In this document: in pieces, positions 20,847 to 64,000 of the stretch
Position numbering within the stretch: the first letter of the stretch is position 1
How the letters are laid out: every line of letters starts with the position of its first letter
From: Chlorobium sp.
GTDB taxonomy: Bacteria > Bacteroidota > Chlorobiia > Chlorobiales > Chlorobiaceae
NCBI GenBank assembly: GCA_005862285.1
Contig: SZXW01000010.1
Coordinates: 496,001 to 560,000 of the forward strand
Length of the DNA stretch: 64,000 bases
Direction: 5' to 3'
Notes under the pieces: generated by a model
What the model saw: only the letters and a program-made list of their open reading frames with translations
Told to the model about the DNA's origin: nothing
The model's database searches: none
Made by a program: the position numbers and the translations under genes

Positions 20847-21316
20847 GGGTTTGCTTTTTAGCTTATATGGCTTTATTACGGTTTAAGCATTATTAATCCG
20901 GCGATTAAAACTGTCAATCCTGGTCAGCAACAATAGCTTTGATCCTGTCATTCTGAGGCCGATGCAGTCGGCCGAAGAATCCATAAATTATTGTATAGTA
21001 ACTAAATGGGTTCTTCATTACGCTACGCTTCATTGCGCAATGACAGACCCGTTGCATGGATTTTTTTGCGACTTATTGTTGCCTTAGCAATAATGATATT
21101 GACATCCCCGTATCTCTCTTTGCCAACCTATATAATCCAATGTTTCGGGATTATATGACCTTCCATGAATGATCCGATGAGTTGCAAACGATCCTGACTC
21201 TTTGTACCGGCAAGCTTTGGCAGATACAAAAATATTCAAGGCAATAAAATAATACTCAAAACTTTTCAGAAACAAGATATACCAAAAATATGAATTGAAA
21301 CGACAGGCACTCTTTT
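20847..21316. other. Intergenic stretch with palindrome and possible remnants
   Basis: Apart from the palindrome, a minus-strand frame at 21084-21275 (63 codons, with ATHRIIHGRSYNPETLDYIG) is not recognisable and has no clear ribosome-binding site. It may be a remnant like the corA piece beside it. Confidence 0.3.
20945..21046. repeat. MITE-like imperfect palindrome
   Basis: The segment starts CTGTCATTCTGAGGC...CGAAGAATCC and ends GGGTTCTTCA...GCAATGACAG, so its arms are inverted copies (CTGTCATT with AATGACAG, GAAGAATCC with GGGTTCTTC). It lies upstream of the CheB/CheR gene in a gap with decayed genes. Such palindromes are commonly dispersed non-autonomous elements or REP-like repeats; other copies are not visible in this window. 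Confidence 0.55.
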
Positions 21317-44826: not shown

Positions 44827-44895
44827 AACAGGATATAATGGATGAAGTTTTGTTTTCGATATACTTATTAATAAATCTGATCATTTCCTTTCACA

Positions 44896-45540: not shown

Positions 45541-46628
45541 GGATGTCCCTCCTTGAGCAGGTCGAGCAGGACGAGGTTCACGTAGATACGCTCACGCCCT
45601 GCCATCTCGCTGGAAAGGATGCCTGCATCTTCAAGAGCACGGAGGTAGTCGGCGGCGGTCTGGCGTTTGGCGATTCCAGCATCGACCAGGAATGAGATCT
45701 TGGTGTATGGCTGGTGGAATATAAGTTCAACAAGCTCTTTTGTGTAGATCCTCGGCAGATCGCGGCGAACAAGCTCGATAGTCTGGTCGAGCAGTTGACG
45801 GATGGAGAGGATGCGACCGGCGGTCCAGCGTGCAGTCTCCTCTACGCCACGGAGCATGAAAACAATCCAGGATTCCCAAGCCTGCCCTTTGGAAACTTCG
45901 AGAAGCAGACGATAGTACTCCCTCTTGTTCCTGATAATATAACCGCTGAGGTAGAGCACCGGGAGATCGAGCAAACCGGCGTGAATAAGGTAGAGGATAT
46001 TGAGAATTCGGCCGGTGCGCCCATTGCCGTCGGAAAAGGGGTGAATGGCTTCGAACTGGTAGTGGGCCACGGCCATGCGAATCAGCTCATCCGGACCGTC
46101 ATTTGAGGACAGCCAGGAGACAAGATTCTCAAGCTTCCCGGAAATGAGATCTCCTCCGCTCGGCGGTGTGTAATAGACTTCACGGGTTTGGGAGTTTCCG
46201 ATGAACACATCCTCGCCGACCTGGCGGAAATCGACCTTTTCGTCACTTAGAATCGAGCATATGTCGCTGAACAACTCCACGGAAAGACCACGTTTCCTGA
46301 CAACCTCATATCCCCTGTGCAGAGCGGTGCGGTATCGAAGGACTTCTTTGGTTTGCGGGTCGGCAGACCTTGCTTCGTCCAGTGCAGCCCTAAAAAGGGC
46401 GTCACGCGTAGTCAGGATATTCTCGATCTCGGAACTGGCCTGGGCTTCCTGAAGCGGAATGGCGTTGATCAGGATTGCCTGATCGGGGATCAGGCCGCCC
46501 GCTCCTTTCAACTCGGCCAGCGCACGGGTTGCCCTGAGGCATTGCTTCAGCACCGGAGCGGTCTCGATGTCCTCCCGGGGAGGCAACGAAGGCAACGCAT
46601 CAAAAGGAATATTGGGATCAAAGGTCAT
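45537..46628 (-). CDS. Fic-domain protein (AMPylator type)
   Basis: The 363 aa protein is a complete class II-like Fic protein. The inhibitory helix motif S-x-x-x-E-N is present in [11 protein letters not shown] near residue 73, and the Fic active-site loop [19 protein letters not shown] near residue 200 contains the catalytic His and the ATP-binding GNGR. A C-terminal winged-helix-like region follows ([20 protein letters not shown] near 325). Fic enzymes transfer AMP to hydroxyl groups of target proteins; the inhibitory helix keeps them off. It sits between remnants of hsdM and hsdR, a common place for fic in type I restriction loci, and is the only intact gene left there. ATG at 46628 is preferred to the frame start at 46670. 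Confidence 0.88.
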
Positions 46629-46827
46629 ATCCCAGCCCCACCAGCTTCGCCCGACGAGCCTCAAAAGCATCAGATATATACTTGAGAAAAATCAGGCCAA
46701 GCACAACATGCTTGTATTCCGCTGCATCAATAGAGCCGCGAAGCTTGTCAGCCGCCTGCCAAAGCTCCTCCGGGTCGATCCCCAGCTCTCCGGCGGTTAT
46801 GATTTGCTCGTCAGTATTAGCTAACAT
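46618..46827 (-). pseudogene. hsdM: Type I restriction methylase subunit, 5'-end remnant
   Basis: The 69-codon frame starts like HsdM ([20 protein letters not shown], then [20 protein letters not shown] and [13 protein letters not shown]) but breaks off after about 62 residues into out-of-frame sequence ending VGLGYDL. The methylase domain and target-recognition subunit are missing. It overlaps the fic start by 11 bp, so the deletion has joined the hsdM head to the region just before fic. Confidence 0.85.
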
Positions 46828-47413
46828 GTTTATTATTATCTATTTGGTCGGGTGCAGAGTGGCTAACTTAAACAGTCTTATTTCTGTAAGACAAGTTCGT
46901 AAATCGGTACAGTCTTTTAGACATCCTGTTATTTTAAATCGGCAATTTCACTACGGCAAAAAATCACCCTACGAGAGGCAATATTCCAAATAACGTATTT
47001 TCTAAAAACACTTTCCCATAAATCACACTGACAAGACAGCTGGCTCCTTTCAAATCATGAGAATTATCCGGGTTTAATCTGATTCTTCAATTGAAAATAT
47101 ACCTCAATTATTGAGTGAATTTTCAAGTACAATGTTATCTGTTTATTACTGTTACTGTTATCACTTCTATAAATATAGATTACGTCTTATTTTTAAAGAC
47201 TTTGTTGTTTTAGGTTTTATTACCCGGAACACATCAGAAAATATAACCGAGATAAATCTTTTGTTCTGATCTGATAAGCTGTTGCACATTTCAAGTCTTA
47301 ACTTGAAGCGACAGATATCATTAAATCATTAAAATTTATACAATTAATAAGCTTTAAAAGTTATTGGAGATAATTTTATACATTACTACCGTCACTTCAA
47401 AAACCTATGACGG
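46828..47413. other. AT-rich intergenic region between the restriction remnant and the ABC gene
   Basis: 586 bp with no gene I can support. It must contain the promoters of the divergent hsdM head and the ABC transporter. The composition is more AT-rich than the neighbours, in keeping with decayed sequence. Confidence 0.4.
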
Positions 47414-49165
47414 ATGAAAAACCTGCTCAGCCTTAAACCCTACCTGCTCAGGTACAGAAAAAACCTCCTTACAGGCTTCGTATTCATCGTCCTGACGAAT
47501 TTTTTTGCCATCATCGGACCAAAATACATAGGAATTGCCATTGATACAATGAACAGGCCGTTCAAAATAGGCTCTGTTACCGCTGCTGTCGGTTTCTATG
47601 TGTTTTATGCAATCCTGAGCGGTTTTTTTCTGTTTCTCGTACGCCAGAAAATCATCGTCACGTCACGGCTTATCGAATACGATCTCAAAAACGATTATTA
47701 CCGCCATCTGCAGAAACTGTCGAGATCGTTCTTCAATACAACCACGACCGGAGAACTCATTTCAAGAGGCACCAATGACCTCAATGCTATCAGGGAATTT
47801 CTCGGTCCCGGCATCATGTATTCATGCAATACTTTTTTCCGGCTCCTTTTTGCCCTGATCGCCATGATCGCCCTTTCGCCAAAACTGACCTTCTTTGCAC
47901 TTCTCCCCGCTCCGATCCTTAGCTATTCGGTCTACAAGATCGGCAGCAACATGCAGAAGCGCACGAAAAGCATTCAGGAGAGCTATGCCGCAATAACCAA
48001 TCTGGTACAGGAGAACCTCTCCGGCATACGGATCGTGAAAAGCTATGTCAGAGAAACTTTTGAAGTAAAACGTTTCGAAGATCTTAACAGGGATTATTAC
48101 CGGAAAAACCTTTCTCTCGCAAAACTTGAGGCGCTGTTCTATGCTTTTCTTACCGCCCTAACGGCATTCTCGCTTCTGCCAGTCGTCTGGGTCGGAGGTC
48201 TGAGCGTCATCGAGGGCAGTATGACCATCGGAGGAATCGCACAGTTTATCGTCTATGTATCCATGCTGACATGGCCGATCATTTCGATCGGTTGGGTTAC
48301 CAGCATTATCCAGAGAGCATCCTCCGCTCAGGTCCGGCTCAATGAAATTTTCCATACAAAACCGGACATCACCGCCAATGAAGGTATTTCGCCATCCGTC
48401 AAAACCTTTCAGGGATCGCTTTCTTTCCGCGATGTGAGTTTTCATTACCCAGGCCATGAAAACCATCCGATCCTGAAACATATCTCGCTCGATATCGCTC
48501 CAGGTTCCAGAGTCGCTATCGTTGGGGCTACAGGCTCGGGCAAAACGACACTGGTGAACCTTATACCGAGACTCTACGACCCTGTCGCCGGATCTGTCCT
48601 GATTGACGGGATCGACAACAGGCTCCTGCCTCTGGAAACTCTCAGGGAACAGATCGGGTTTGTCCCGCAGGTCAATTTCCTCTTTTCGGATACCATTGAA
48701 AACAACATCAACTGGGGAAGCCGCAACGATGACGTGAACGATGTGATTGACGCAAGCAGGATCGCCATGCTTCATGACGATGTCGTCGATTTTCCAGACG
48801 GGTTCAAAACCATGCTTGGAGAAAAAGGCATCAATCTTTCCGGCGGACAGAAACAGCGGGCATGCATTTCAAGAGCTGTCGCATGGAAACCGCGAGTGCT
48901 TGTGCTCGATGATGCGCTTTCGGCCGTCGATACCGGAACGGAAGCCCGGATTTTCGAGGCGCTGCTGCAGAAACTTCCCGATACTACGATCATCCTTATC
49001 AGCCACAGGATTTCAACGGTGAAAAACTGCGACCGCATCATCGTTCTCAAGGATGGCTCCATTGCAGAAAGCGGAACCCATGAAGAGCTGCTGAAGCAGC
49101 AGCATCTCTATGCCGAACTTTACAACCAACAGCTCCTCGAGGAGGAAATCCTCTCAATCTCATAA
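47414..49165 (+). CDS. ABC exporter, membrane and ATPase domains fused
   Basis: The 583 aa half-transporter has six membrane helices in residues 1-320 (beginning [19 protein letters not shown]) and an ATPase domain at about 335-583: Walker [17 protein letters not shown] near 377, signature [17 protein letters not shown] near 475, Walker [15 protein letters not shown] near 495 and the His switch ILISHRIST near 530. It would work as a dimer, exporting lipids, drugs or peptides. The layout is like MsbA and multidrug exporters. The start ATG at 47414 is well placed before the first helix. Its last six bases overlap the convergent purT end. Confidence 0.9.
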
Positions 49166-50341
49166 ACTCGCCTGCTCACTCTCGACCCTCACCTTTTTCG
49201 CGTTGGCGATCGCTTTTGCTTTCAGTGCAGCGATATCGCTGTCCGGTTCGTCATAAACAAGCGCCACACCCATTCGCCTGTAGGGACGCGTACTCGGCTT
49301 GCCGAAAATGCGAATGTCGGTGCGAGGTTCTTTCAGGGCATCTTCCACACCGGTATAAGCAGGATTTCCGCCCTCTTTGCCGGCAAGGATCACGGCGCTT
49401 GCGCCAGCCTTCAGCAGCTCGATTTCAGGAATGGGAAGGTCGAGTACAGCCCGGGCATGCAGCTCGAACTCGTTCAGGTTCTGCGTTCCGGCAAGAGTTA
49501 CCATGCCGGTATCATGAGGACGCGGAGAAAGTTCGGAAAAATATATCCCGTCATCCGCAAGGAAAAATTCTACCCCCCAGATGCCGGCACCAGTCAGCGA
49601 TCGGGTTACTTTATCTGCTATTTCCCGCGCCTCTTTCAGATCTGCGTAGCTGATAACGCATGGCTGCCAGCTTTCCTGGTAATCCCCGCGTTCCTGGCGA
49701 TGCCCTATCGGAGGGCAGAACAGCGTTTCGCCGTTTTTCCGGGTCACGGTAAGCAGCGTTATTTCCGTATGAAAATTCACGAACGATTCCACGATCACTT
49801 CCGCGATGTCGCCGCGCTTGCCGCTCTGCGAATAACTCCAGGCTTTTTCGATCTCCTCTTCCGTTCTGATCACGGACTGGCCCTTGCCCGACGAGCTCAT
49901 CAGGGGTTTAACAACACAGGGCAGCCCCAGCTCACAGGCCGCCGATCTGAGCTCTTCGAGCGTAGAGGCATAACGATAGTCCGCCGTTCGAAGACCGAGC
50001 TCCTTCGAGGCCAGATCTCGTATCGCCCTTCGGTTCATGGTGAAATTCGCCGCACGGGCCGAAGGAACAACCTGTATCCCCTGCTTTTCATAGTCATAAA
50101 AGCGCTCAGTACGAATCGCCTCGATTTCAGGAACAATAACATCTGGCCGGTGTTTCGCAACAATGGCATCGAGCGCTGCACCATCGAGCATGTTGATCAC
50201 TTCACGTTCATCGGCAACCTGCTGTGCCGGTGCATCGTTGTAACTGTCGACGGCAATCACATATTGACCAAGGCGTTTTGCCGCAATGACGAATTCCCTG
50301 CCGAGTTCTCCGCTGCCGAGCAGCATGATTTTCTTTGCCAT
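49160..50341 (-). CDS. purT: Formate-dependent phosphoribosylglycinamide formyltransferase
   Basis: The 393 aa ATP-grasp enzyme makes formyl-GAR from GAR, formate and ATP in purine synthesis. Features: N-terminal Rossmann part [20 protein letters not shown] near residue 6, ATP-binding [15 protein letters not shown] near 153, formate/GAR region [19 protein letters not shown] near 211 and [17 protein letters not shown] near 268. The length is full. It offers an alternative to the folate-dependent PurN. Confidence 0.95.
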
Positions 50342-50407
50342 CCCGATATTTAATTATTAAAAGTTGACTTCAATTTATCCTGTCCCGAAACTTCAGGCAG
50401 GGATGAC

Positions 50408-50821
50408 TTACAAGGTAATCTTTCTTCTCAGGTTCTTGATTTCCGAATGAGCGGTCTTGCTTTCAAGGCGTTTTTCCTTCGATGCCGAAGTCGGTTTCGT
50501 TGGCTTCCGCTTTGCCGGAACATCCAGTGAACGCTGGAGCAGGACCTGAAAACGGTGCAGCGCGTCTTCACGATTCTTCACCTGTGAACGGAAACGCTGT
50601 GCCTTGATTACAATGATACCTTCGGCGGTGATGCGCCGGTCCTTCAGCTTCATCAGCCTTTCCTTAACCTCATCCGGAAGAGAAGAGGCCCGGATATCGA
50701 AATGAAGATGCACCGCAGTTTCAACCTTGTTGACATTCTGACCGCCGGCACCCTGTGAACGCATCGTCTGCAAGCGGATCTCCCGGTCAGGTATCTTTAT
50801 GGAACGGCTTATATACAGCAT
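50408..50821 (-). CDS. arfB: Peptidyl-tRNA hydrolase of the ArfB family
   Basis: The 137 aa protein has the class I release-factor catalytic loop: RSQGAGGQNVNKVETAVHLH at about residues 21-40, with the GGQ tripeptide at 26-28, and a basic C-terminal tail (residues 105-137, rich in K and R) that enters the mRNA channel of stalled ribosomes. It releases peptides from non-stop ribosomes. A 28-bp piece of its coding sequence (50723-50750) is found again at 56933-56960. It lies 27 bp after the HAD gene. Confidence 0.92.
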   Translation of the reverse strand: MLYISRSIKIPDREIRLQTMRSQGAGGQNVNKVETAVHLHFDIRASSLPDEVKERLMKLKDRRITAEGIIVIKAQRFRSQVKNREDALHRFQVLLQRSLDVPAKRKPTKPTSASKEKRLESKTAHSEIKNLRRKITL

Positions 50822-51111
50822 CGCTTCAGCAGTGAATCATAAACCCGATTAAAAATCCCCCAGTTCTTCAAAAGCCCGCGTCCAGCCGGTGAAAAGGTGC
50901 GCAGGTATTCCGCAAGCATCCGCACACCGGCAGTTATCCTCACGGTCATCGATCAGCAGAAACTCATCCGGTTGCCTGGAGCACACGCTGCCAAGAATTT
51001 GATGGAATGCCCCGGGTTCACGCTTGAGATAACCATGCTCATAGGAAAGCAGGTATCTGTCCGCCTGTTTGAGAACCGGAAAATTATTGAGCAGGAAAGT
51101 GAAATGCAGCG
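50723..51111. repeat. Source of the duplicated arfB-HAD segment
   Basis: Bases 50723-50750 (within arfB) and 50927-51111 (within the HAD gene) recur joined together at 56933-57139. The 176 bp between them are missing from the copy; the six bases CCGGCA are present at both ends (50745-50750 and 50927-50932), as expected for a microhomology-mediated deletion. Confidence 0.9.
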
Positions 51112-51442
51112 GATCTGTATCGCTCGTGATCCAGATCGCATGACGGTCGCGGAACCTCAGAAGGGCGTCTTCTATACCCTCCTTGAGCGTAAATATATCC
51201 TGCCAGGCCGTTTTCAGCTCATTGACAGGCATCCTGCGGATATCGGGATCACCGGCTATCATGGAGAGATACTCTGCCGGAGCGACAAGTCCCTTGTCGA
51301 ACATCAGTTTGACTTCGCTCACACAATAGCGGTGGAAAAGCGTTTCAGCCCCTGCTGCTCCATGCAGTGAAACCGAACTGCAGAACTTATTAAAATCGAC
51401 TTCAACGATCACATTGCCGATATCCAGCAGAATAATACCCAT
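50849..51442 (-). CDS. HAD-family phosphatase (YihX-like)
   Basis: The 197 aa protein begins ILLDIGNVIVEVDFNKF; the D-x-G-N form of HAD motif I is that of YihX-type sugar phosphatases rather than the usual D-x-D. Motif II (WITSDTDPLH near residue 105), the Lys of motif III (SYEHGYLKREPGAF near 140) and motif IV (LIDDREDN near 165) are present. The substrate is unknown, probably a sugar phosphate. The part covering residues about 111-172 is duplicated at 56955-57139. It is followed by arfB on the same strand. Confidence 0.85.
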   Translation of the reverse strand: MGIILLDIGNVIVEVDFNKFCSSVSLHGAAGAETLFHRYCVSEVKLMFDKGLVAPAEYLSMIAGDPDIRRMPVNELKTAWQDIFTLKEGIEDALLRFRDRHAIWITSDTDPLHFTFLLNNFPVLKQADRYLLSYEHGYLKREPGAFHQILGSVCSRQPDEFLLIDDREDNCRCADACGIPAHLFTGWTRAFEELGDF

Positions 51443-51480
51443 TGTTGTCTCGAAGTTGATCGCTTAAATGAAAATTCTGC

Positions 51481-52788
51481 TCATTGAGCCTCTTCACGCA
51501 AGATAATCGTCAGCAAGGTAAATATCACGGCGCCGAAAAAACTCGCAGAAAGCATGATACGCAGAACCCTGACATCCTGGATAGCCTGGGGCGCGAAAGT
51601 CCGTATCTGTGAGAAACCCTGGGTAACGAGCAATCCGTAAGCAATCGCAAAAGTCATGAACCGCCCTTTATTCAAAGAATTGAGCAGCAGTTCGTCGAAA
51701 ACCACTGCAAGCGGGAGGAGAAAAAGCATATAATAGTGGTACCATGAAATCGGGGACGCGAGAATCATGAAGCAGACAAGCAGCACGATATCCAGATCTT
51801 CACCTTTTCCCTTATCCTGCATGGTTTCCGGCCGCCTGCGCATTGCTCGGACAACCCCTGCGAGCAGAATGAACACCAGCAGGTAACGCAGGAGTGTGAC
51901 CTGCTGAGACGAGCCGACCATTTCCCATCCGTTGACATCACCCGTTGTTAAAGCGTGAAGCAGAAAACCGTTTATCGACTGGTTGTTGAAGGCAGCTATC
52001 CCGCCGGACTTCAACTGCATCAGAACTAACGTTACATAGGCCTGTATACCGGCCGGCCCGGTCGTCACCCAGCTTGCGGCAACTATCGCAATGGCGCCGG
52101 CAAGCATCCCTGCCACCACTTTCCATTCCCGGCGCCACACATAGTAGATAATGAAGAGCGCCGGTGTGAATTTCAGGGGAACGATGAGGCCGAAAACGGC
52201 ACCGGCAGGAAACTTCCATCCCTTTTTCAGGAAGTAATAAGACATGGTAAAGCAAAACAGCACAAGAGCCGAGATATTTCCGAGCCAGAGATTATCGAAT
52301 ACCGGCTGGAACGTCAGGCAAATGAAAATGATCCATGCATTGCGCAAGCCGGAAAACCGCGGATCCCCACTCCACGGTCGAGCCAGCACGATGAAAAGGA
52401 TTGCCAGACAGGTGAGCACACTGTTGATTGCAAACCAGATCCGGGCCGCTATGATGTAATCCATGCGGGACAAGGGAACAAATATCCAGGCATAAGCTGC
52501 AGGATATAGCCAGGCAGTCGCCAGAGGACTCCGGGGAAAGTAAAAGTGCTGAAAGTGATCCAGGTACGCTTTTGAACTTGTTATGAGCTCGGCCCCTGAC
52601 AGAGGAAAAAGATCCGCAGTACTGCCTGAATCGAGCAGCTTTCCTGCAACGTAATAGGGCGAAAAATCAATGGCGAATATCGGGTTGCCGATACTGTTGA
52701 TGCTGTGATACATGAAAAAGGAGACAGCGAATGCGGCAAGGAGCAGTGCGCTCAGTGCGGTGAAATTGCCGCCTGCTTGATTGTTCAT
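51481..52788 (-). CDS. GT87/DUF2029 membrane glycosyltransferase
   Basis: The 435 aa protein has about ten membrane helices and the pattern of GT87 mannosyltransferases: DFSPYYVAGKLLDSG near residue 43 (catalytic Asp in the first loop), LWLGNISALVLFC near 185, and LKFTPALFIIYYVWRREWKV near 215. Known members use polyprenyl-phosphate sugars as donor outside the membrane. ATG at 52788 is chosen because GGAGG lies 8 bases before it; the frame runs 68 codons upstream without membrane-protein character. It lies 39 bp from the HAD gene end. Confidence 0.82.
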   Translation of the reverse strand: MNNQAGGNFTALSALLLAAFAVSFFMYHSINSIGNPIFAIDFSPYYVAGKLLDSGSTADLFPLSGAELITSSKAYLDHFQHFYFPRSPLATAWLYPAAYAWIFVPLSRMDYIIAARIWFAINSVLTCLAILFIVLARPWSGDPRFSGLRNAWIIFICLTFQPVFDNLWLGNISALVLFCFTMSYYFLKKGWKFPAGAVFGLIVPLKFTPALFIIYYVWRREWKVVAGMLAGAIAIVAASWVTTGPAGIQAYVTLVLMQLKSGGIAAFNNQSINGFLLHALTTGDVNGWEMVGSSQQVTLLRYLLVFILLAGVVRAMRRRPETMQDKGKGEDLDIVLLVCFMILASPISWYHYYMLFLLPLAVVFDELLLNSLNKGRFMTFAIAYGLLVTQGFSQIRTFAPQAIQDVRVLRIMLSASFFGAVIFTLLTIILREEAQ

Positions 52789-52948
52789 TGTACAATCCTC
52801 CGTTTTGTCATGTTTGCATTGATATATATCTTTTTCCTGAAAATTTCCCGTCCCATGTTGCGGAAAATACAGTAGAAACAATATAGTACTTATGACAACG
52901 AACTCCGGGCAGATAAAAAGAAACTGTCTCAGGGGATATTTCCTGAAA

Positions 52949-53274
52949 TCATCGCCCTTCATGCGTGCATACTTGGCGAGATAGATCGGCATCGATAATC
53001 GGATACCTGCCCCGCCCGTTCAATTTCATAAGGTTCCCCGTTCCGTTCTCGAAGAACTCCTTCTGCCACCGGTAGAAGAAGACGGTTGGCTGCAGCTTGT
53101 ATTGGTCGCATAGGTCAGAAACCGGTATTCGGTCAACCAGATGCCGTTTGAGGATGAAAACCTTCTCTTGTGGGGTGTAATTTTTTCGATGTTTGCGCAT
53201 GGTGAATTTCTCCGTTTTTGTACGCTAACTCAAACGGCGGAATTCTCCAATTCACGCTGAACCAAAACAGGTCA
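52949..53274 (-). mobile_element. Truncated IS (IS3-family-like) remnant
   Basis: An 83-codon frame (52949-53200) begins MRKHRKNYTPQEKVFILKRH and runs through VSDLCDQYKLQPTVFFYRWQ, the helix-turn-helix head of an IS3-family OrfA transposase. After about 53 residues (KEFFENG) the similarity ends and the frame goes into unrelated sequence. Upstream, 53201-53274 looks like the IS end (CCAAAACAGGTCA at 53262-53274, TG-ended on the minus strand). The remaining transposase and other end are absent, so it is dead. The AT-rich island begins at once beyond it. Confidence 0.7.
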
Positions 53275-53494
53275 CTACAGATATCAAAACTGTATCATTT
53301 TATATCTTGATTAATATTAATAAAAAATAAATCTATTAAATAAAATATTTAGTATTAATGAAGTGTATGCAATAAAATCAAACAATTGCATGGCGATTAT
53401 ATGCTCTATTACGCATAGCATATAAATAATTTATATACTGTTTTATATTAAGATTAAGAAAGGGGAGAATATATTAAAATCCGATCAAATGCGT

Positions 53495-54058
53495 TTATTT
53501 GTTTTCGATATCACGAACCTTTTGATCCATCATATATGAGTTAGTATACTCAGGGTCAAATGAATAACTTTGTATCTTCCAGTATTTTGCCCGTTCTATG
53601 TCACAAACCTTTAAATCCATCATATATGCATTAGTATACTCAGGGTCAAATGAATAACTTTTTGTTTTCAAATATTTTGTATGATTTATATCTTTAATTT
53701 TATAATAACGATATTTATTTTCTATATGATTTCGGTAAATATAATTGCAAAATAATTTTGATGTTTTGATCTCTGTTCCTTTAAGCTGATTTGATTTATT
53801 ATATTTAGAGTCAGAATCGCTATAAATAATATTTGAATTGTTTGTGTAAGTTTTTGTTCCCATTTTGCCTGTGTATGGATTTATATTTCCATATGTTGAC
53901 CAATTATTTTGAAATACTCAATCCGGATTAGATCTATAGTGAGGCATAACATAAGTTCCATTTTGTCTAAAATACCCTCTAACATGAACATCAGCTAATA
54001 CTATATTATAAATCAAAATAAATATTATACTTATTTGGTAATATAATATATTCCTCAT
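53495..54058 (-). pseudogene. Secreted repeat protein gene interrupted by an in-frame TGA
   Basis: An ATG at 54058 starts a frame with a signal-peptide-like head (MRNILYYQISIIFILIYNIV, then LA) and the block DVHVRGYFRQNGTYVMPHYR SNPD, followed by a TGA at 53918-53920. The same frame then continues with NNWSTYGNINPYTGKMGTKT and runs to 53495. The two sides together match a widespread short secreted motif (GYYR-NGTYV-PHYR...N-STxGNxNPYTG), so the TGA (probably from GGA, Gly) interrupts one gene of 188 codons. The C-terminal third has two 30-residue tandem repeats. Translation from ATG at 53863 could still give a 122 aa piece, but without the signal peptide. Confidence 0.7.
53498..53677 (-). repeat. 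Two 90-bp tandem repeats at the end of the secreted-protein pseudogene
   Basis: Two adjacent 90-bp units encode KYLKTKSYSFDPEYTNAYMM... and KYWKIQSYSFDPEYTNSYMM..., 30 residues each and mostly identical. The DNA is close enough (for example TTAGTATACTCAGGGTCAAA in both) to indicate recent duplication. Confidence 0.85.
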
Positions 54059-54201
54059 TAGTCTTAATATTAGAATCTTTATAAGGGGTGATATACTTCC
54101 AGTATCTTTATTAAAATTACATCAGGAATTGACTATGCACCACGCAAAACTTCACTAAGAATACCAACTTATTATGAGCTATTGAATTTATGTTTATTGT
54201 C
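53864..54201. other. Upstream part of the interrupted gene and gap
   Basis: Up to 54058 this is the 5' half of the interrupted secreted-protein gene. From 54059 to 54201 I see only AT-rich sequence without a gene. Confidence 0.4.
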
Positions 54202-54639
54202 TTAAGTATTAGGTTGTGTTACTTTAAATAACGAAGAATTTTGTGATGAAGTAGGCTTTTGCTGAATATTGGTTAATTGTGATTTTCTGTTTTTAATTTT
54301 ATTTTCAATATTTTTCTTCGACACTTTGTCTTTTTGATTTATAATAAAAAAAATAATTCCTCCAATTATACCGGCAATTCCAAAAGAAATATTTATAAGA
54401 AATGACCATGTTGGTGATTTCTTATAAATCACACTACTTAATTCTATTAAAGTATTTATTATACTTGGAATAGCTAAGGCAAACCAAAACAAATAATTGC
54501 CCCTATTATCGCTACCATATGAATTAATAAGCATATTTAAATCATTGTCATCAACAGTATATTCTATCTTGGTAGAATCGAAGAAAATAACTCTCTTTAA
54601 ATATGTTTCATCAGTACTATTAGTGGCTTTCTCACTCAT
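54202..54639 (-). CDS. Two-helix membrane protein of unknown family
   Basis: 145 aa, AT-rich codons (many Asn, Ile, Lys, Ser). A soluble N-terminus of about 48 residues (YLKRVIFFDSTKIEYTVDDN) is followed by two membrane helices (about 49-72, NYLFWFALAIPSIINTLIEL, and 80-101, WSFLINISFGIAGIIGGIIF), then a Lys/Asn/Ser-rich tail. No family recognised. It is 12 bp from the next gene upstream and clearly part of the same island operon. Confidence 0.6.
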   Translation of the reverse strand: MSEKATNSTDETYLKRVIFFDSTKIEYTVDDNDLNMLINSYGSDNRGNYLFWFALAIPSIINTLIELSSVIYKKSPTWSFLINISFGIAGIIGGIIFFIINQKDKVSKKNIENKIKNRKSQLTNIQQKPTSSQNSSLFKVTQPNT

Positions 54640-54651
54640 AATTGTATCTCT

Positions 54652-55038
54652 TTATGGTTTTATATAAAGAGTTGATTTCGCTAACAATATCCCATCTATT
54701 TGTAAATTTATATAATATTCCCCGTAATTTTTAAACTCACAACCTATAACATTAACAATTATGTTCATGTTGAAAGTATCGTTACCATCAAAATCATTAA
54801 ACTCTATTTCTTGACCTTCCAAAGCACTAAATATTACATTATTATTCTGCATTATTTTTACGTCTACTTTATGAATACCTATTTCATTTTTTTTGTAGCG
54901 TATTATTCCGATGATATAAAAGCAAGGCAATGCAACCGGTATCACTTCTGAGTTTATAGAATTAAATGTACCTAATATATTAAGCTTGCCTCGAGAGTCA
55001 TTTGCACCATCACATGAAAGAAATGCTTCTACAATCAT
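54652..55038 (-). CDS. Small beta-rich protein, DUF6941-like
   Basis: 128 aa, no signal peptide. It opens IVEAFLSCDGANDSRGKLNI LG, a head I associate with DUF6941 (VEAFLLCD-x-A-x(3)-GGKLNILG type), and ends with a beta strand LLAKSTLYIKP. The fold is probably a beta-sandwich; DUF6941 proteins are of unknown function and are scattered across bacteria in mobile regions. It lies between the two-helix membrane protein and the 89 aa protein, on the same strand. Confidence 0.6.
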   Translation of the reverse strand: MIVEAFLSCDGANDSRGKLNILGTFNSINSEVIPVALPCFYIIGIIRYKKNEIGIHKVDVKIMQNNNVIFSALEGQEIEFNDFDGNDTFNMNIIVNVIGCEFKNYGEYYINLQIDGILLAKSTLYIKP

Positions 55039-55106
55039 GAATACTCCTGTATTTGTTTTATAATTTTTTAATCTTATTGAAAAAATACTCCTGTATAAAA
55101 AAATAA

Positions 55107-55376
55107 TCAGCTTTGCAGTGTTATTGTAAAAACAATATTTTCACTATCATCTATATCTTCATTAATGCGATAATTTCTTCTAATAAAAAATAATATAATT
55201 GAGAATTCAACAGTTTTTCTTCTTGCAGGTGTTAAATCATCTAAATCAATATTTGCAAAATTATCATTAAATGAAAAGAAATTGTCTTGTGTTAAAAAGA
55301 ATGATAAACTTCCTTCCTCAAGTAATCTTCTTAATAAAGCATTGTTAGAAGTTGTCGCAAAATCGAGAGGTTCCAT
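55107..55376 (-). CDS. Small acidic protein of unknown function
   Basis: 89 aa, acidic, soluble: MEPLDFATTSNNALLRRLLE at the head, FSFNDNFANIDLDDLTPARR in the middle and NRINEDIDDSENIVF-type sequence at the end. No family, signal peptide or membrane helix is recognised. It lies 68 bp upstream of the DUF6941-like gene on the same strand and may be the first gene of a three-gene unit. Confidence 0.5.
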   Translation of the reverse strand: MEPLDFATTSNNALLRRLLEEGSLSFFLTQDNFFSFNDNFANIDLDDLTPARRKTVEFSIILFFIRRNYRINEDIDDSENIVFTITLQS

Positions 55377-55663
55377 AGTAAAATTATTTATAGTTAATAA
55401 AACCTATAGATATTATCATTTATTCATTTGAAGTTACGTAACAAAGAACAAAAAAAACCATCAGCATTTACATTCAGCATACATTGTGCATAATTTCAAA
55501 AAGATAAGATAAATTAGACATAATATCATCATGACAAACCGTCCTCTTTCTTGAGCAAAGAGAGACTTCACAACATTATAATTTAATAGCGTCCCAAAAA
55601 TTTAAAAATATAAAATAGATTCTCTATTATTAACAATCTATATTATAGTAAAGAGAGTTATTG
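55377..55663. other. AT-rich gap inside the island
   Basis: Nothing but AT-rich sequence; a promoter for the small operon to its left is likely here. No repeat or RNA seen. Confidence 0.4.
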
Positions 55664-56671
55664 TTATTGCCCATAAACTTCGATTATTTTTCCATCATCA
55701 CCAAATACATATCTTACAACGCTATTTTGTGTTATAGTTCTGTTTTGCTTTAAGTTTTGATATGTATATATAGTATTTAATAAGTATGTTAAGTTGTCAA
55801 TTTTTTCAATGCTCTGTATATTGTTTTTTGAGTTTGAAGTTATACCCCATATATGCTGATAACGATTAATTAATTGTGTTTTTTTAGGATTTGTTATATC
55901 CCAGTATCTTGTCATATTATCAGAATAATATTGAATTATTGTGTCAATATTTCTACTATCTTCAGCGTTAACTATCGACCTAATAATATTTGTATAATTA
56001 TCATTTATTTTTGTTTCGTTTTCTAACGGATAAGCAGGTACTTCATTTGATTCTTGAACTTGTGGTTCTGTTGGTGCTTGTTGAACGACATTTAGAGGTT
56101 CTTTAATTTTTTTCTCAATTTCACTTCGTTGAGCAGAAGCACAACACTCTATCAATTCATCACTCCATAGAATTACTTCATTGTCATATATTTTTTTTAA
56201 TAAAGCTATATTTCTATATGATAATGATTTCTTTTCTGGATAAACTTCAGTACCATCTTTAATTTCTCCAATTACGCCATACCACCCAGCATTAAAGGTA
56301 TTATCAACATTAATAATAAATTCTTGCTTAAACTGAATATGTTTAATATTTGATAAATGATTATCTGATGTATTATCTGAATCAGTTGAATTATTAGCCT
56401 TATCCAAATCTATATTAGCAATAACAGTAACAATACGCCTTCCATTTTCACTCTTACTGGAATTCCATTGTACTTTATTAAAATACTTATAATTATCAAA
56501 TGCTTGACCAACAGTAAGTGTATTATCAAATTTTAAAACACCATCTTTTATAATAGATACATCTTTATCAATTATTGGAGTATTGACTTTATTACAAGCT
56601 GTTAATAAAGCAATAAAACCTAATAGTGTTATTAGATTTAAGATAGAATATTTATTAAATATAGATTTCAT
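55664..56671 (-). CDS. Lipoprotein with SnoaL-like C-terminal domain
   Basis: 335 aa. Signal peptide residues 1-25 end in the lipobox LLTAC (Cys about 26), so it is a probable lipoprotein acylated via Lgt, Lsp and Lnt. Residues 30-190 form an unrecognised domain (FDNYKYFNKVQWNSSKSENG; GWYGVIGEIKDGTEVYPEKK). A Pro/Gln/Glu linker (about 195-220) leads to a C-terminal domain with IIQYYSDNMTRYWDITNPKK and VVRYVFGDDGKIIEVYGQ, which resembles SnoaL/NTF2-like folds. Function unknown. It is the largest and rightmost gene of the AT-rich island. Confidence 0.65.
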   Translation of the reverse strand: MKSIFNKYSILNLITLLGFIALLTACNKVNTPIIDKDVSIIKDGVLKFDNTLTVGQAFDNYKYFNKVQWNSSKSENGRRIVTVIANIDLDKANNSTDSDNTSDNHLSNIKHIQFKQEFIINVDNTFNAGWYGVIGEIKDGTEVYPEKKSLSYRNIALLKKIYDNEVILWSDELIECCASAQRSEIEKKIKEPLNVVQQAPTEPQVQESNEVPAYPLENETKINDNYTNIIRSIVNAEDSRNIDTIIQYYSDNMTRYWDITNPKKTQLINRYQHIWGITSNSKNNIQSIEKIDNLTYLLNTIYTYQNLKQNRTITQNSVVRYVFGDDGKIIEVYGQ

Positions 56672-56932
56672 TGCGTTTATTTGGCTAAATATATATAAAA
56701 AATGAAACCGATTAACTCATTTGAATGGCTATATGCGGCAGTACTTTTAATAGAGAAACTATCAAGTGCCAAAAGAAAAAGATGTAGGGTATCTTTAACA
56801 ATGCAAGTATAAAACGTTAAGACGTTATTAATACTTCCTTAGAAGTTACTCAAAAAAGAACAAAATAAGAACTTTAGATAGTGCCAATATTATACTTTGT
56901 ATGGCTTCTCAAAAAAACTGTTAAATAGACAT
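56672..56932. other. Right edge of the AT-rich island
   Basis: AT-rich sequence with no gene I can support. A GC-balanced composition resumes abruptly at 56933, where the duplicated arfB segment begins. Confidence 0.5.
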
Positions 56933-57153
56933 AACCTTGTTGACATTCTGACCGCCGGCAGTTATCCTCACCATCATCGATCAGCAGAAACTCATCCGGT
57001 TGACTGGAGCGCACGCTGCCAATAATTTGATGGAATGCCTCGGGTTCACGCTTGAGATAACCATGCTCATAGGAAATCAGGTATCTGTCCGCCTGTTTGA
57101 GAACCGGAAAATTATTGAGCAGGAAAGTGAAATGCAGCGAATGTGTGTCGCTG
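56933..57153. repeat. Duplicated, internally deleted arfB-HAD fragment flanking the island
   Basis: Bases 56933-56960 are identical to 50723-50750 in arfB; bases 56955-57139 match 50927-51111 in the HAD gene with seven differences by my count over 185 bases. The two are joined at CCGGCA, which is present once here and at both source sites, so 176 bp plus one copy of CCGGCA (182 bp) were lost. A 105-codon minus-strand frame (56874-57191) runs through it and carries the HAD middle region (FLLNNFPVLKQADRYLISYE) without motif I; it is non-functional. Orientation is the same as the source, a direct repeat with about 6.2 kb spacing. Confidence 0.9.
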
Positions 57154-58140
57154 TCACGCTGGAATCTGCTTTTTTTTCTTTTCGATTTCATTGCGCGGCC
57201 CGGTTGACCTCACCTGCATGAAACGTTGAAGAACATCGAACCAGAAAGGCGCACCAAGAGAAATGGCAAATATACTGACAAGAAGGCCGGCAATCTTGGT
57301 GGCAACATCAGTAAGCGTTTTTCTTGCTGTCCACCATCCCCTCCAGCCCAGGGAAAGACCGGCGGATTCACTGAAATGTATAGCGGTGTCATATGCAGCC
57401 TGCGCTGCCTCGTATTTCGAGTCAGCTTCGGTTATTGATTGTGGCGTTGACGTTTTATCTTTCTTCAGCTTCTCTGTTTCAGCCTTTCTCTTTTCGAGCA
57501 GTTCGCCCGCATTTTTTACCATTGCCGCCCTCGTATCCGGTTTTGAGGAAAGCGAAGCAACAAGGTTTACCGAATCAACGTTTGCAAAGATTACAAGTGC
57601 TGACGAAACCGCTATCGAGATAGTCTGCTGCCGGCGTTTGAACCATCCTGAAGTACGGCCCATAACCGCATTGAAATGCGTTTCGACAGCTTTCCGAAAA
57701 GCTGCGGCATCACCTTCAGCCTGTAAAACCAGCGCATGAAGAAGACCTTTGATACGGTTTTTCTCACCCTCCAGGGATTTGCCCGGCAATGCATTGACTG
57801 CATCCGGGAGTGACAGGGTATCATCGTGAGATACAAGCAGTGCTTCCACAACCCTGCCGACAAGTTCCGGCGGAATGTAGGAGGGAAGGTCCCTGCCTCC
57901 TTTCCTTTTATCCCTGCTGAGCGATTGAATCAGCGGATGCTCGAAAAATGCTGCAGCAAAGGCTTTTTTTTCAGAAATATCTCCTGCAAGAAATTCATTC
58001 ATCGCTGTTTCGAGAAACGAGCTCCGCAGTGAAAGCAGAGCTGCCACAGCTTCGACAATAGAGGTGCAGGCCAGCCCGAAAACGAGGTAGACCGTCACCA
58101 GGCCAATCATGACATCGAGCATTTCCAGTCCAAACATCAT
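57154..58140 (-). CDS. Three-helix membrane protein of unknown function
   Basis: The 328 aa protein has a first helix at about residues 8-33 (VMIGLVTVYLVFGLACTSIV), a soluble part containing FFEHPLIQSLSRDKRKGGRD and LPSYIPPELVGRVVEALL, then a hydrophobic segment near 173-195 (QQTISIAVSSALVIFANVDS), a Lys/Glu-rich helix, and a last helix near 284-303 (IAGLLVSIFAISLGAPFWFD). I recognise the pattern (HPLI...PSYIP...SGWFKRR) as a family spread in many bacteria without known function. An AGGAGGAG precedes the ATG. Its stop codon lies exactly where the duplicated repeat ends, so its last residues (KKKKQIPA) may have been rewritten by the rearrangement. Confidence 0.75.
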   Translation of the reverse strand: MMFGLEMLDVMIGLVTVYLVFGLACTSIVEAVAALLSLRSSFLETAMNEFLAGDISEKKAFAAAFFEHPLIQSLSRDKRKGGRDLPSYIPPELVGRVVEALLVSHDDTLSLPDAVNALPGKSLEGEKNRIKGLLHALVLQAEGDAAAFRKAVETHFNAVMGRTSGWFKRRQQTISIAVSSALVIFANVDSVNLVASLSSKPDTRAAMVKNAGELLEKRKAETEKLKKDKTSTPQSITEADSKYEAAQAAYDTAIHFSESAGLSLGWRGWWTARKTLTDVATKIAGLLVSIFAISLGAPFWFDVLQRFMQVRSTGPRNEIEKKKKQIPA

Positions 58141-58443
58141 CTCCTCCTGTTTTTTGATCCGGTATGAAAGATATATAGCAAGCTTGTTTCAACCGTGAGG
58201 ACCATCCTGCTGCCCTTTCCGGTAAAAGCGACTAAGAAAAACCGTAACCAGGAAAATATTTCTCCTGACTGTTCTCTTATTTGAACTGAATGGTGAGTAT
58301 GAAGGGGCCGGACTGCCTTGTTTATTATGGGGTCCGGTTTTCAATTGTTAATATACTGCATACATTGTTTTTAACAAAAACACCATCCATCAAACCCGGC
58401 TGAAGATGGGCTGTTTCGCTTGAAATTACATGGAATTCCCGCT
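58141..58443. other. Divergent intergenic region
   Basis: About 300 bp between two divergent genes. A weak 6-bp hairpin (CCGGAC 58308-58313 with GTCCGG 58332-58337) followed by TTTT is present. No gene seen. Confidence 0.35.
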
Positions 58444-59040
58444 ATGAAATTGATTATATTCCGAAGGAACTCTACCACTCCAACCCCCTCTGCCATGAAC
58501 ATTTTTATGACGAGAGCCAATTCGCTCTTCATGATTATTCTGCTTTCTCTGACCGTAACCGTGAAAGCGCAAGCAATGGATGGATATGAAACCGCCGGAG
58601 ATATCTTTTCGGTAGCATTACCGGTTGCTGCCGCAGGATATGCACTTTCCATCGATGACCATTCAGGGCTGCTGCAGTTCGCCGCTTCCGAAGCTCTCAC
58701 CTTCGGTGCTACCTATGGATTGAAATATATCATAAACGAAAAAAGACCGAATGGCGGAGACCACTCTTTCCCTTCAGGTCATACCGCCGTTTCCTTCGCT
58801 TCGGCAGAGTTTGTCCGTGAACGATACGGATGGAATTACGGGATACCGGCATATGTCATCGCTACCTTTGTGGGTATCAGCCGGATAGAATCGGACAATC
58901 ATTTCACGCATGACGTACTTGCAGGAGCTGCGATAGGAATTGGCAGCAGCATGCTCTTCACCACTCCATACAAGGGTTGGAACCTCAAACCGCATGTAGC
59001 AAGCAACTATTATGGTGTCTCCCTGCATGGATCATGGTAA
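58444..59040 (+). CDS. PAP2-family phosphatase, exported
   Basis: 198 aa from ATG at 58444; a second ATG at 58495 would give a more usual signal peptide (ANSLFMIILLSLTVTVKA, cleaved after the A). The acid phosphatase motifs are complete: K-x6-RP in KYIINEKRPNGG, PSGH in HSFPSGHTAVSF and SR-x5-H-x3-D in SRIESDNHFTHDVLAG. PAP2 enzymes dephosphorylate lipids such as undecaprenyl or phosphatidyl-glycerol phosphates in the periplasm or at the membrane. It is followed after 33 bp by a methyltransferase gene in the same direction. Confidence 0.87.
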   Translation: MKLIIFRRNSTTPTPSAMNIFMTRANSLFMIILLSLTVTVKAQAMDGYETAGDIFSVALPVAAAGYALSIDDHSGLLQFAASEALTFGATYGLKYIINEKRPNGGDHSFPSGHTAVSFASAEFVRERYGWNYGIPAYVIATFVGISRIESDNHFTHDVLAGAAIGIGSSMLFTTPYKGWNLKPHVASNYYGVSLHGSW

Positions 59041-59073
59041 ATCATATCGAACATTTTTCAGCAATCCGGACAA

Positions 59074-59874
59074 ATGAGCAATTTCACCGATATTTCGAAA
59101 TTCTACCAGCATGCGGCCGAGTTGCAGAAATCCGCCGGCGAGCAGCTTTTCAGTATGACCCCAATCGGCAAATCGGACGATGTGCTCGATCTTGGCTGCG
59201 GTCCGGGACATCTTGCGGCAGCGATCAGAAAACTGACCGAAGGCAGGGTCACCGGCATCGATCCATCTCCAGGCATGATCGCCAAGGCATCTGCAGCCTA
59301 CCCCGACGAGCGAATCACTTTTCTTGTCGGTGACGCAGAAAACCTCGGCATGCATGAAGAGTTCGACGTGATCTTCTGCAACTCGACACTGCAATGGTTC
59401 CGTGATCTCGACAGGGCGATTGCCAACTGCTGCCGGGCCCTCCGTTCCGGAGGACGGATGGCCGTGCAGGCACCGGCAACGCACAATTACTGCCCCAATT
59501 TCATCCATGCAGCCGAGGCAATGCTCGATGACGAGTCCACGCAGAGCACCTTCCGGAATTTCCGGTCGCCGTGGGTATTTTTCGATACCGCTGAGGAATA
59601 CTCGGCTGTTTTCGAACTGGCAGGATTCAGTGTGGTGACTTCCGAAATCAGGGAGATGATGATGCTCTGCCCGCCTGAAAAAGTCTTCGGGATGTTCGAA
59701 ACCAGTGCGGCTGCCGCATACTTCAACGAGGAGTGCTACATCGGCCCGTTTCCCCCGGACTACATCGAAAATGCCCGCAGGGTTATCGCCCGCGACTTCT
59801 CATCACAGGCCGGGGAGGACAACCTTGTCAGGCTTGCATTTTCAAGGATCTATCTGCTCGCCGAAAAACCGTAA
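59074..59874 (+). CDS. SAM-dependent methyltransferase (trans-aconitate / BioC-like group)
   Basis: The 266 aa protein has the class I methyltransferase core: SAM motif VLDLGCGPGHLAAAIRKL near residue 38, GIDPSPGMIAKASAAYPD near 63, FLVGDAENLGM near 85 and FCNSTLQWFRDLDRAI near 100. The STLQWF pattern is typical of trans-aconitate methyltransferase and BioC-like proteins. The C-terminal part (GFSVVTSEIREMMMLCPPEK) is less conserved. The substrate cannot be read; a carboxyl-group acceptor is possible. No biotin genes are nearby. Confidence 0.82.
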   Translation: MSNFTDISKFYQHAAELQKSAGEQLFSMTPIGKSDDVLDLGCGPGHLAAAIRKLTEGRVTGIDPSPGMIAKASAAYPDERITFLVGDAENLGMHEEFDVIFCNSTLQWFRDLDRAIANCCRALRSGGRMAVQAPATHNYCPNFIHAAEAMLDDESTQSTFRNFRSPWVFFDTAEEYSAVFELAGFSVVTSEIREMMMLCPPEKVFGMFETSAAAAYFNEECYIGPFPPDYIENARRVIARDFSSQAGEDNLVRLAFSRIYLLAEKP

Positions 59875-59887
59875 AACTTATACATGC

Positions 59888-61315
59888 TCAGGCAAGAGAT
59901 TCGAGCTGCCGGCCGAGGTCCTTGCGGGCCATGCTGTACATGTGCACGTAGAGAAGGTTGAACATGAGCACGGCGGAACGCAGCCGGGGGGCTTTCATTG
60001 CGCGCCTGAGCGCGTTGGGTACCGTGAACACCCGTTCGGTCATAGCGGTGTAGCTGGGAATGAACTGCTTCAGCGGAACGCTCTTCGGAATGTAGAGCAT
60101 CTCCTGCGCCCATGAAAAGCGGAACGCATCATGGTCGTACGGATCGGGGATCAGCCGACCTTCCGCGGCGAGCCGGTCGAACACGGCGGTACCTGGAATA
60201 GGCCGCAGAAGGTTGATTCCGGGCACATCCACACCGGTCTCTTCGATAAACTCCTCGAGCATCGCAGGCATATCGAGCGAATCCCCGTCCAGTCCGTAAA
60301 TGAAACTGCCGTAAACACAGATGCCCGCTTCACGGATGTTTCTGATGCATGCCGACTGGCGGGCCGCTGGGTTATGGAATTTCTGGTGGGCGTGGTTGCT
60401 CCGGTCGGCGAGGCTTTCGATGCCGATCAGGAGCGCGCCGCACCCCGACCGCGAAAATGCTTCGAGCAGCTTCGGTTTTTCGCCGAGGGCAGTCGTAGCC
60501 TGGCCGACCCAGCTTATCCCGTAAGGAATGAGCTCGGTAAAAAGCTTTTCGGCATAGGCCTCATCGGCATTGACGGTATCGTCGAGAAAGAAGAAAATCC
60601 GTTTGTCCTCTTTCAGGAAGGTTTCGACCTCTTTTACAACACTGCCGATGCTGCGATGGCGCAGCCGATGGCCGTTCATCACATGCACGTTGCAGAAATC
60701 GCAGTTGTAGGGGCACCCCCTCGTGGTCTGGACAACGTTGGTGGTGAAATAGCTCGGGATATCGAGCGCGTTTTTCGATACCGGCCGGTCGATGCCGAGA
60801 TCGGGATAGGTTTCGACACGGTACTCGGGTTTCAGATGCCCCGCAAGCAGGTCGCGCTGCACCTCTTCCCAGATATCGTCGGCCTCGCCTATCACAAGGG
60901 CGTCGCCATGCTCGCGGCAGCGGTCGGGAAAGACCGTCACATAAGGTCCTCCGAGCACGACCCTGATCCCTTTCGAGCGCAGGAGGCGGGCAAGTTCGAA
61001 AGCAGGCTTCACCGCTCCGGTCTGGACGCTGATGCCCGCCATATCCCAGTGCCGGTCGAGAGGAAGCTTTTCGAAACGCAGATCACAGATGGACTGGCTC
61101 ACTCCCTGAACCTTCCGGGAGCTGAGGATCATCAGGGAAAGGGGCGGGATGGCAAACTGAGCACGCCGTATGATATTGCTCATGGCGGCATCCTTCAACG
61201 AGCTGAACACATTGCGTTTCACCATGGCGCTGTCAAGATGCGATGCACCGTCCACACCGCTGTCGGCCTGAATAAAAATCAGCAATACCTGTTTTTCCGC
61301 CATATCCCCAATCAC
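59888..61315 (-). CDS. B12-binding-domain radical SAM protein, second in window
   Basis: The 475 aa protein has an N-terminal B12-binding-like region (about 60-190; [20 protein letters not shown]) and a radical SAM core with [11 protein letters not shown] near residues 199-209, [19 protein letters not shown] near 245 and [17 protein letters not shown] near 295. It resembles BchE/BchQ/BchR-type enzymes and other B12 methylases, but I cannot assign one. The start is a GTG at 61315 overlapping the mutS stop, or an ATG four codons later (61303) with GGGG close by. It overlaps the mutS end by 4 bp and so is translated from the mutS message. Confidence 0.85.
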
Positions 61316-63933
61316 CGGTATTTGACCCCTTTGCGTGCAATATCCTGCAGTTTTTTCAGCTCGAGAAGGGCGTCGATCGGCGCAAGCCGGTCGATATCGA
61401 TAGCCTCTACTTCCTGACGCAGCAGATTGTCTGCCTCCTCGAACAGACTGATCTGCATGCTTTTCAGTCCAGAGGGCCGGTCTGGCGGAATTTCAATTTC
61501 ACGTTTTTCCATACCGGCAAGGATCTCCCGGGCACGTTCTATAACTTCCGCAGGCATACCGGCCATTTTCGCCACCTCGATACCGTAACTGTTGTCGGAA
61601 GCTCCTCTGACAATCTTTCGCAGAAAGATCACCTTGTCGAGGGTTTCCACAACGGTGGCGTTGTAGTTGACCACGCCCGCAAGACGTCCCTCGAGTTCTG
61701 CAAGCTCATGGTAGTGCGTGGCGAAAAGTGTCCGCGCCCCGATGGAATGGCAGATGTATTCGCTCATGGACCAGGCGATGGACATGCCGTCGAAAGTGCT
61801 GGTCCCGCGACCGATCTCGTCGAGCAGTAGAAGGCTTTTCGATGTGGCATTGTTGAGAATGCTGGCCGCCTCGTTCATCTCGACGAGGAAAGTACTCTCG
61901 CCTGATGTGATGTTGTCCGACGCACCTACCCTCGTGAAAATCCGGTCGACAAGCCCTATCTCCGCCCGTTCCGCCGGCACGAAGCTCCCCGCCTGGGCAA
62001 GCAGCACGATCAGCCCGGTCTGGCGCAGGAACGAGCTCTTGCCGGCCATGTTCGGCCCCGTGATGATCAGCATCCGCTGCCGTTCATCGAAAGTGCAGTC
62101 GTTTGCCACATAGGGCTCGTCCGGGCTCATGATCCTTTCGAGCACCGGATGGCGGCCGCCTGCGATCGAGAGTTTTTCATGCTCCATGATTTCAGGCTTG
62201 CGGTAGCCATAGAGTTCTGCACACAACGCGAACGAAGCAAGCGCATCGATCTCGGCAATTACAGCCGCATTCTGCTGGATATCGGAAGCAAGTGCGGCAA
62301 TGTCGGCGCAGAGTTCGTGGAAAAGCCGGGCTTCGAGCGCGAGGCTTCGTTCTTCGGCGTTGAGAATCTTTTCCTCGTACTCCTTCAATGCCGGAATGGT
62401 GAATCGCTCGGCATTCACAAGGGTCTGCTTCTTCTCGTAATAGGACGGCACCTTGTCGAGGTTCGCCCTGCTGATTTCGATATAGTAGCCGAAAACCTTG
62501 TTGAACTGCACCTTCAGCGACGAGATCGAGGTGTTGGCCCGTTCTTCCTGCTGAATCTGCATAAGACGGTCTTTCGCGCTCGAAGCGATGGTCCGAAGGT
62601 CGTTAAGTTCGGCATTGAAGCCTTCCCGCATATATCCCCCGTCCCGCATCGACGCGCCAGACTCCGGATCGATGGCTGAATCGATGCGCTGTGCAAGTTC
62701 CGGAAGGGGCCTGAGCGCAGCGGAAAGATGACGGAGCCGTGATGCGAGAGCGCCGCCGATGATCTCCTGGAGGAGAGGCACTGCCTGCAGGGAAAGTCCG
62801 AGCTGTCGCACCTCCCTCGGTATGGTGCGGAAGGTGGCGATACGCGCCAGGGAGCGTTCGAGGTCATTGATGGCCGACAACTGTTCGCGAAGAGCGTCCC
62901 TGGCCGGTTTCGATTCCTTCAGCTCTTCGACCGCGTCAAGCCGCAGCCGGATATCGCCGGCCCTGCGCATCGGCCTTTGCAGCCACCGGCGGATGAGCCT
63001 CGCCCCCATCGGGTTGCAGGTACGGTCCATTACCTGGAGAAGGCTGCCGCTGACACTGCCGTCCTGCATGGAAGAGATGATCTCGAGGTTCCGTTTGGTC
63101 TGCAGGTCGAGCATCATGTATTCGCCGCTCTGCACCTCCCTGATGCGGGTGATATACTGAAGCCTGTTCTGTCGGGTCTCTTCGAGGTACTGAAGAATGA
63201 CGCCCGCAGCAACCTTTCCCGCACGGTTCCCCTCGATGCCGAACCCTTTCAGCGAGTGGGTTTTGAACTGCCTTGCGATCACCTCTGCGGTGTGGTCTTC
63301 GCTGAACATCCATGAATCGAGCTCCGTAACGAGCATGTCGGACGGAAATGATTTTTTCAGAGGTTCGAACCGTTCTCTTTCGTCTGCCGATACGAGGACC
63401 TCCGAAGGATGCAGCGAAAGAATGAAATCCCTGAGCTCTTCGTATGAAAAGGTTGCGATGCTGAATTCGGCGGTCGTCACGTCGATGAAAGCCACCCCTG
63501 CAAGCAGTTTCCTTCCTTCCTTGAGAAACGCTACCGCGCAAAGGTAGTTGTTGTGCCGGTCGTCGAGAATCTTGTCGCTGTAGGTAATCCCTGGAGTGAT
63601 GATATCGGTGATCTCCCTGCGTACGATCCCCTTTGCGGAAGCAGGATCTTCCACCTGGTCACAAACCGCCACCTTGTACCCTCTCTTGACAAGTTTCGCG
63701 ATATAACCTTCGCTCGCATGATGGGGAAAGCCTGCCATTGGAATGTCTGCGGTTCTTTTCGTTAGCACGATGTTCAGAACGGCCGAAACTTCCCTGGCGT
63801 CATCGAAAAAAGTCTCGTAGAAATCACCGACCCGGAAAAGCAGAAGGTAATCAGGGTATCGTTCCTTGACCTCGAGATACTGCCGCATCATCGGAGAATG
63901 ATCTTTCTGCGATATACCCTCTTCTCTGCCCAT
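61312..63933 (-). CDS. mutS: DNA mismatch repair protein MutS
   Basis: The 873 aa ATPase recognises mismatches. The mismatch-contact motif is in [18 protein letters not shown] near residue 34. The lever and clamp domains follow ([20 protein letters not shown] near 285). The C-terminal ATPase has Walker [18 protein letters not shown] near 622, Walker [18 protein letters not shown] near 697 and [11 protein letters not shown] near 735. Length is normal. No mutL is adjacent; the overlapping downstream gene is a radical SAM enzyme. Confidence 0.97.
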
Positions 63934-64000
63934 ATCGAGTTTTCAGTGATTTATACCTTTCAGGAACGAAATGCCACCCTGCAAAAAGAAGCTAATCCAG

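Follow-up and report, generated by a model that had tools for sequence, protein, structure and literature searches.

Gene content of the locus

A chimeric sequence at positions 56933-57153, composed of a fragment of arfB and a fragment of a HAD-family phosphatase gene, was analysed within a 64,000-nucleotide stretch of Chlorobium sp. DNA (contig SZXW01000010.1), referred to here as the window. The source genome consisted of 2.6 Mb in 15 contigs, and the locus lay far inside one of them (C1). Both parent genes were found intact about 6 kb from the chimera. The arfB gene (50408-50821, minus strand), encoding an alternative ribosome rescue aminoacyl-tRNA hydrolase, was recognised by NCBIfam NF006718 (E = 4.7e-55) and Pfam RF-1. 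The phosphatase gene (50849-51442, minus strand; HAD below) gave weak HAD/glucose-1-phosphatase-like matches, and its orthologue adjoined arfB in many genomes of the genus.

Between HAD and the chimera lay a GT87 glycosyltransferase gene (51481-52788, minus strand, 51% GC; Pfam PF09594, E = 2.5e-36) and a truncated insertion sequence (IS) end (53042-53268, minus strand) with a weak IS66 TnpA-like match. The IS end abutted an AT-rich island of 26% GC (53269-56932), which contained orphan open reading frames (ORFs), a DUF6941 protein, a 2TM protein and a lipoprotein-like ORF. On its right side the chimera was followed by a membrane-protein-like gene (57154-58140, minus strand).

Structure of the chimeric copy

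The repeat finder matched positions 56933-56960 (arfB', minus strand) to arfB positions 50723-50750, a segment located at the GGQ motif, with 28 of 28 nucleotides identical (repeat D14, 100%). Positions 56955-57152 (HAD', minus strand) matched HAD positions 50927-51124 with 188 of 198 nucleotides identical (repeat D1, 95%). Both pieces were on the same strand as their sources, and the start-to-start spacing was 6210 bp for the arfB piece and 6028 bp for the HAD piece. In a whole-genome search, these two places were the sole sources of the chimera (E = 4.7e-86 for the HAD place and 2.0e-7 for the arfB place). A first-pass annotation, made from the sequence alone, had described a 28-bp arfB piece and a 185-bp HAD piece with seven differences, fused at a shared CCGGCA, and both source genes intact. 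The fusion, the complete arfB match and the intact source genes were borne out, and exactly seven differences fell within the first 185 bp; the HAD match was real but ran 13 bp further, to 198 bp with ten differences.

The CCGGCA (56955-56960) was common to both pieces, the join could be placed anywhere within it, and 182 bp were skipped relative to the intact locus. Among random joins (deletions of 100-300 bp in the same region), only 0.2% had a microhomology of at least 6 bp, a chance of 0.002. The hexamer stood at both ends of the 182 bp removed and one copy of it was left, as in a microhomology-mediated deletion.

Comparison with related genomes

The locus was compared with 65 genomes of the genus; 40 relatives were used for the insert DNA and 296 genomes of the phylum for the DUF6941 gene. 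The closest relative compared was G008, inferred to be a metagenome-assembled genome of Chlorobiaceae, with about 89% DNA identity, and no genome among the 65 was closer. It was collinear with the window in two blocks, 47376-51443 and 57169-64000, at about 88-89% identity.

In G008, the order was arfB, HAD, a 141-bp spacer and the counterpart of the 57154-58140 gene (87% identical to G008:C27:33299-34279). No GT87 gene, IS fragment, AT-rich island or copy was present at this locus in G008. The site was empty, and therefore about 51465-56932 (~5.5 kb), GT87 included, was inserted DNA. Its left edge was placed approximately at 51465-51480, where similarity to the region upstream of HAD in G008 faded out. 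The first-pass annotation had proposed looking for an empty site in relatives, which G008 provided; it had also taken the AT-rich island alone as the insert, with GT87 outside, and this had to be corrected, the GT87 gene and the IS fragment both being part of the inserted DNA. GT87 as original chromosome was rejected, as the gene had no match in G008 or in any other genome of the genus that was searched, and its matches elsewhere in the phylum were distant.

A second arfB-HAD copy or the insert was absent from all 65 genus genomes searched, none closer than ~89%. Likewise, none of them carried the copy without the island, which the first-pass annotation had named as counter-evidence. A dispersed repeat (core CTTCGCTCCGCTCGGAATGAC; window 20889-21093; L028 10362-10550) occurred in tens of copies in G000 and in G008; one of these stood between arfB and HAD in G008 and not in the window.

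Read outward from the island, the right flank consisted of arfB' (28 bp), HAD' (198 bp) and the next gene, ordered and oriented as in the ancestral locus but lacking two stretches. The stretch missing before the next gene amounted to about 460 bp relative to G008, made up of about 318 bp of HAD and the 141-bp spacer. At this second deletion join (57153-57160), HAD' abutted the next gene at its 3' end, and a new stop codon lay within the join. The gene ended KKKKQIPA-stop, its G008 counterpart ended KKRELPKDLNKK-stop, and the final residues (KDLNKK in G008) were lost.

It could be supposed that, as the right end of the insert became joined to the chromosome, repair copied just the two nearby pieces, of 28 and 198 bp, by microhomology-mediated template switching, and that a full second copy never existed. 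The short length of both pieces, their source 6 kb away and the 6-bp microhomology would be in keeping with such a templated insertion, and snippets inserted by template-switch repair are described in E. coli (PMC3161906). The microhomology-mediated deletion and template-switch junctions described there resembled the present one in the 6-bp microhomology and in having fragments of nearby sequence at the border of a rearrangement; they differed in that the event here was old and took place in a green sulfur bacterium, with no experimental parent strain. However, the pieces kept the ancestral order and orientation and ended in the ancestral next gene, which random switches would not produce. Template switching itself does not explain this collinearity, whereas a duplicated flank with deletions gives it free, and the templated insertion was considered improbable.

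Decay and age of the copy

The differences between HAD' and its source were polarised with G008 as the outgroup. Nine of the ten had arisen in the copy, the tenth in the source. The derived changes in the copy comprised 8 nonsynonymous and 1 synonymous, where the neutral expectation was given by 78% nonsynonymous sites. Over the same segment, 13 codons of the intact HAD differed from G008 synonymously and 5 nonsynonymously, and the contrast with the copy was significant (Fisher p = 0.004). The 28 bp of arfB' were identical in the source, the copy and G008, and no polarisation was possible there.

Because nine of the ten differences lay in the copy and its substitutions were near the neutral expectation, HAD' is, as judged from these alignments, an unconstrained pseudogene, derived from the HAD of this lineage later than its split from G008. 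The chimera is without function now. A derivation from the HAD of another lineage was not favoured, as the copy shared all but one of its own genome's differences from G008.

The age was scaled by the synonymous divergence (dS) of mutS and an ABC transporter, which was 0.40-0.45. On this scale, the nine changes over 198 bp placed the duplication at about 0.2 of the branch since the G008 split, with a range of roughly 0.1-0.4 from counting error. The event had earlier been called recent; this holds only in a relative sense, as the copy carried nine derived substitutions, most of which changed an amino acid, and these amounted to about one fifth of the neutral change accumulated since that split.

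The same pattern bears on a possible assembly artefact, in which misjoined reads made both the chimera and the island boundary. A misjoin would be identical to its source, whereas the copy had ten differences in a clear pseudogene pattern. Additionally, the locus lay well inside its contig and both outer flanks were syntenic with G008. An artefact was thus judged extremely improbable.

The inserted block

In the 40 relatives, the insert DNA had no match beyond the IS piece, the arfB/HAD matches and a single weak match of 145 bp, in G012. The plasmid search returned only distant matches for GT87 (25-29% identity). The IS end was 98% identical to a piece on contig C12 of the same genome and 94% identical to one in G008. 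The DUF6941 gene was found in 1 other genome among the 296 of the phylum. In the lipoprotein-like ORF (55664-56671), the last ~115 residues were 40-47% identical to proteins in several other Chlorobiaceae; its DNA was AT-rich like the rest of the island despite these matches. It was also observed that an orphan ORF of the island contained two tandem 90-bp units (53504-53683, 83% alike) encoding a repeated motif, YSFDPEYTNxYMMD.

No integrase, replication or mobilisation genes were recognised among the insert ORFs scanned, nor was an att-like core. The phage, plasmid and viral collections held no match for the chimera, the island or the DUF6941 gene. An IS-bounded transposition was not indicated either: the single truncated IS end lay inside the insert (53042-53268), and none was seen at 51465 or 56932. 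Site-specific integration at the arfB GGQ motif, with the 28-bp repeat as att, was rejected, as the HAD sequence between the repeats was ancestral in G008 and the scanned ORFs contained no integrase. Instead of an att-type repeat, the repeat was a mosaic of two gene pieces.

These searches also bear on an integrated circle. A circle carrying the arfB-HAD stretch, GT87 and the island, entering by a single crossover (Campbell type), would leave direct repeats on either side of the insert in just the order observed, and the right one would have decayed. Against it stand the lack of any recognised replication, integrase or mobilisation gene among the ORFs scanned and of any match for the island and chimera in the plasmid, phage and viral collections; moreover, the circle would need this host's arfB-HAD already aboard. 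Such an integration was considered unlikely.

Neighbouring insertions

In G009, the matched part of a radical SAM gene adjoining mutS lay within about 300 bp after HAD, and the 57154-58140 gene, the PAP2 gene and the methyltransferase gene were absent from the locus. In the window and in G008, the segment 57154-59874 (membrane-protein-like gene, PAP2-type phosphatase, methyltransferase) was located between HAD and the radical SAM gene. An older insertion at this same site, or a loss in G009, would probably account for the difference. The gene orders suggest repeated uptake of genes at the site beside HAD.

Another insert of ~2.5 kb was observed at 44871-47375. Within it were a Fic-family gene (PADLOC SoFic, E 1e-113) and a fragment similar to the C-terminal portion of a type I restriction enzyme. 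It was absent from G008, G009, G012 and G021, where its flanks met directly.

Origin of the chimera

It was proposed that the acquired insert was probably flanked by a direct duplication, of which the chimera is the decayed right-hand copy. The proposal started from what was observed: the empty site, the collinear arfB'-HAD'-gene order and the origin of the copy from the HAD of this lineage. The marks of a relic of a duplication flanking an insert were present here, namely a second copy in direct orientation, a single-copy empty site in G008 and lost coding constraint.

When the insert arrived, a stretch of at least 743 bp, from arfB at 50723 through the HAD start at about 51465, would have been duplicated, and its two copies would have flanked the new DNA in direct orientation. 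The duplication and the insertion may have been one event: replication or repair would have passed onto the foreign DNA and restarted about 740 bp behind. Being redundant, the right-hand copy would then have lost 182 bp between the two CCGGCA repeats and a further stretch of about 460 bp reaching to the next gene's stop, and would have gathered substitutions without constraint. The probability given above covers the insert-linked duplication with its decay; the template-switch step within it is what we infer. A single event would be the shortest account, and a prior tandem duplication or a single-crossover circle would give the same structure. The first-pass annotation had linked a duplication and a microhomology-mediated deletion to the island. 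The second copy, the CCGGCA join and the lack of both copy and island in G008 agreed with this; however, the second deletion of about 460 bp had gone unnoticed, and its reading of the copy as a sign of the way in which the island came is plausible, but as an association only.

Of the alternatives, a tandem arfB-HAD duplication may have come first, with the foreign DNA entering later at or near the join of the copies and the right-hand copy then decaying. This order of events leads to the same final structure and the same collinear right flank, and tandem duplications are common in bacteria. However, it requires two independent events at one spot, and the duplication alone was present in no genus genome. 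Furthermore, unselected tandem duplications are usually lost fast by recombination. A prior tandem duplication was regarded as rather unlikely.

Several points weigh against the insert-linked duplication. No intermediate, either a full-length second copy or a duplication without the island, was found among the 65 genus genomes, none closer than ~89%, a distance at which such an absence is no refutation. The junctions between the island and arfB' and between HAD' and the next gene had no usable ancestral sequence for microhomology, as it was diverged or not recoverable. Finally, the composition of the insert was mixed (51% and 26% GC), and the insert may have arrived in more than one step.

The locus resembled insertion-with-duplication or single-crossover repeats in that an acquired block was located between an intact and a partial gene copy in direct orientation. 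It differed from them in that no integrase or att-like core was recognised and the right copy was mostly lost. The stretch of at least 743 bp was also far longer than a transposon target-site duplication. A literature search for short-patch double illegitimate recombination found nothing, and the same was true for integration by natural transformation.

Significance

The chimera is an ordinary, common type of genome scar, well explained in kind, and no view of any gene's function is altered by it. It is a polarised scar: the site is empty in a close relative and filled here, and the dead partial copy beside the insert carries a rough, substitution-based age with a wide error. Should the copy and the insertion have formed together, this age would apply to the insertion too. 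It is a doubtful, speculative extension that green sulfur bacteria regularly capture foreign DNA by replication that switches and resumes several hundred bp behind, leaving decaying duplications. If this mode of capture were true, the locus would be one datable example of its signature. The finding suggests that the acquisition of a block without a recognisable integrase can bring a local duplication.
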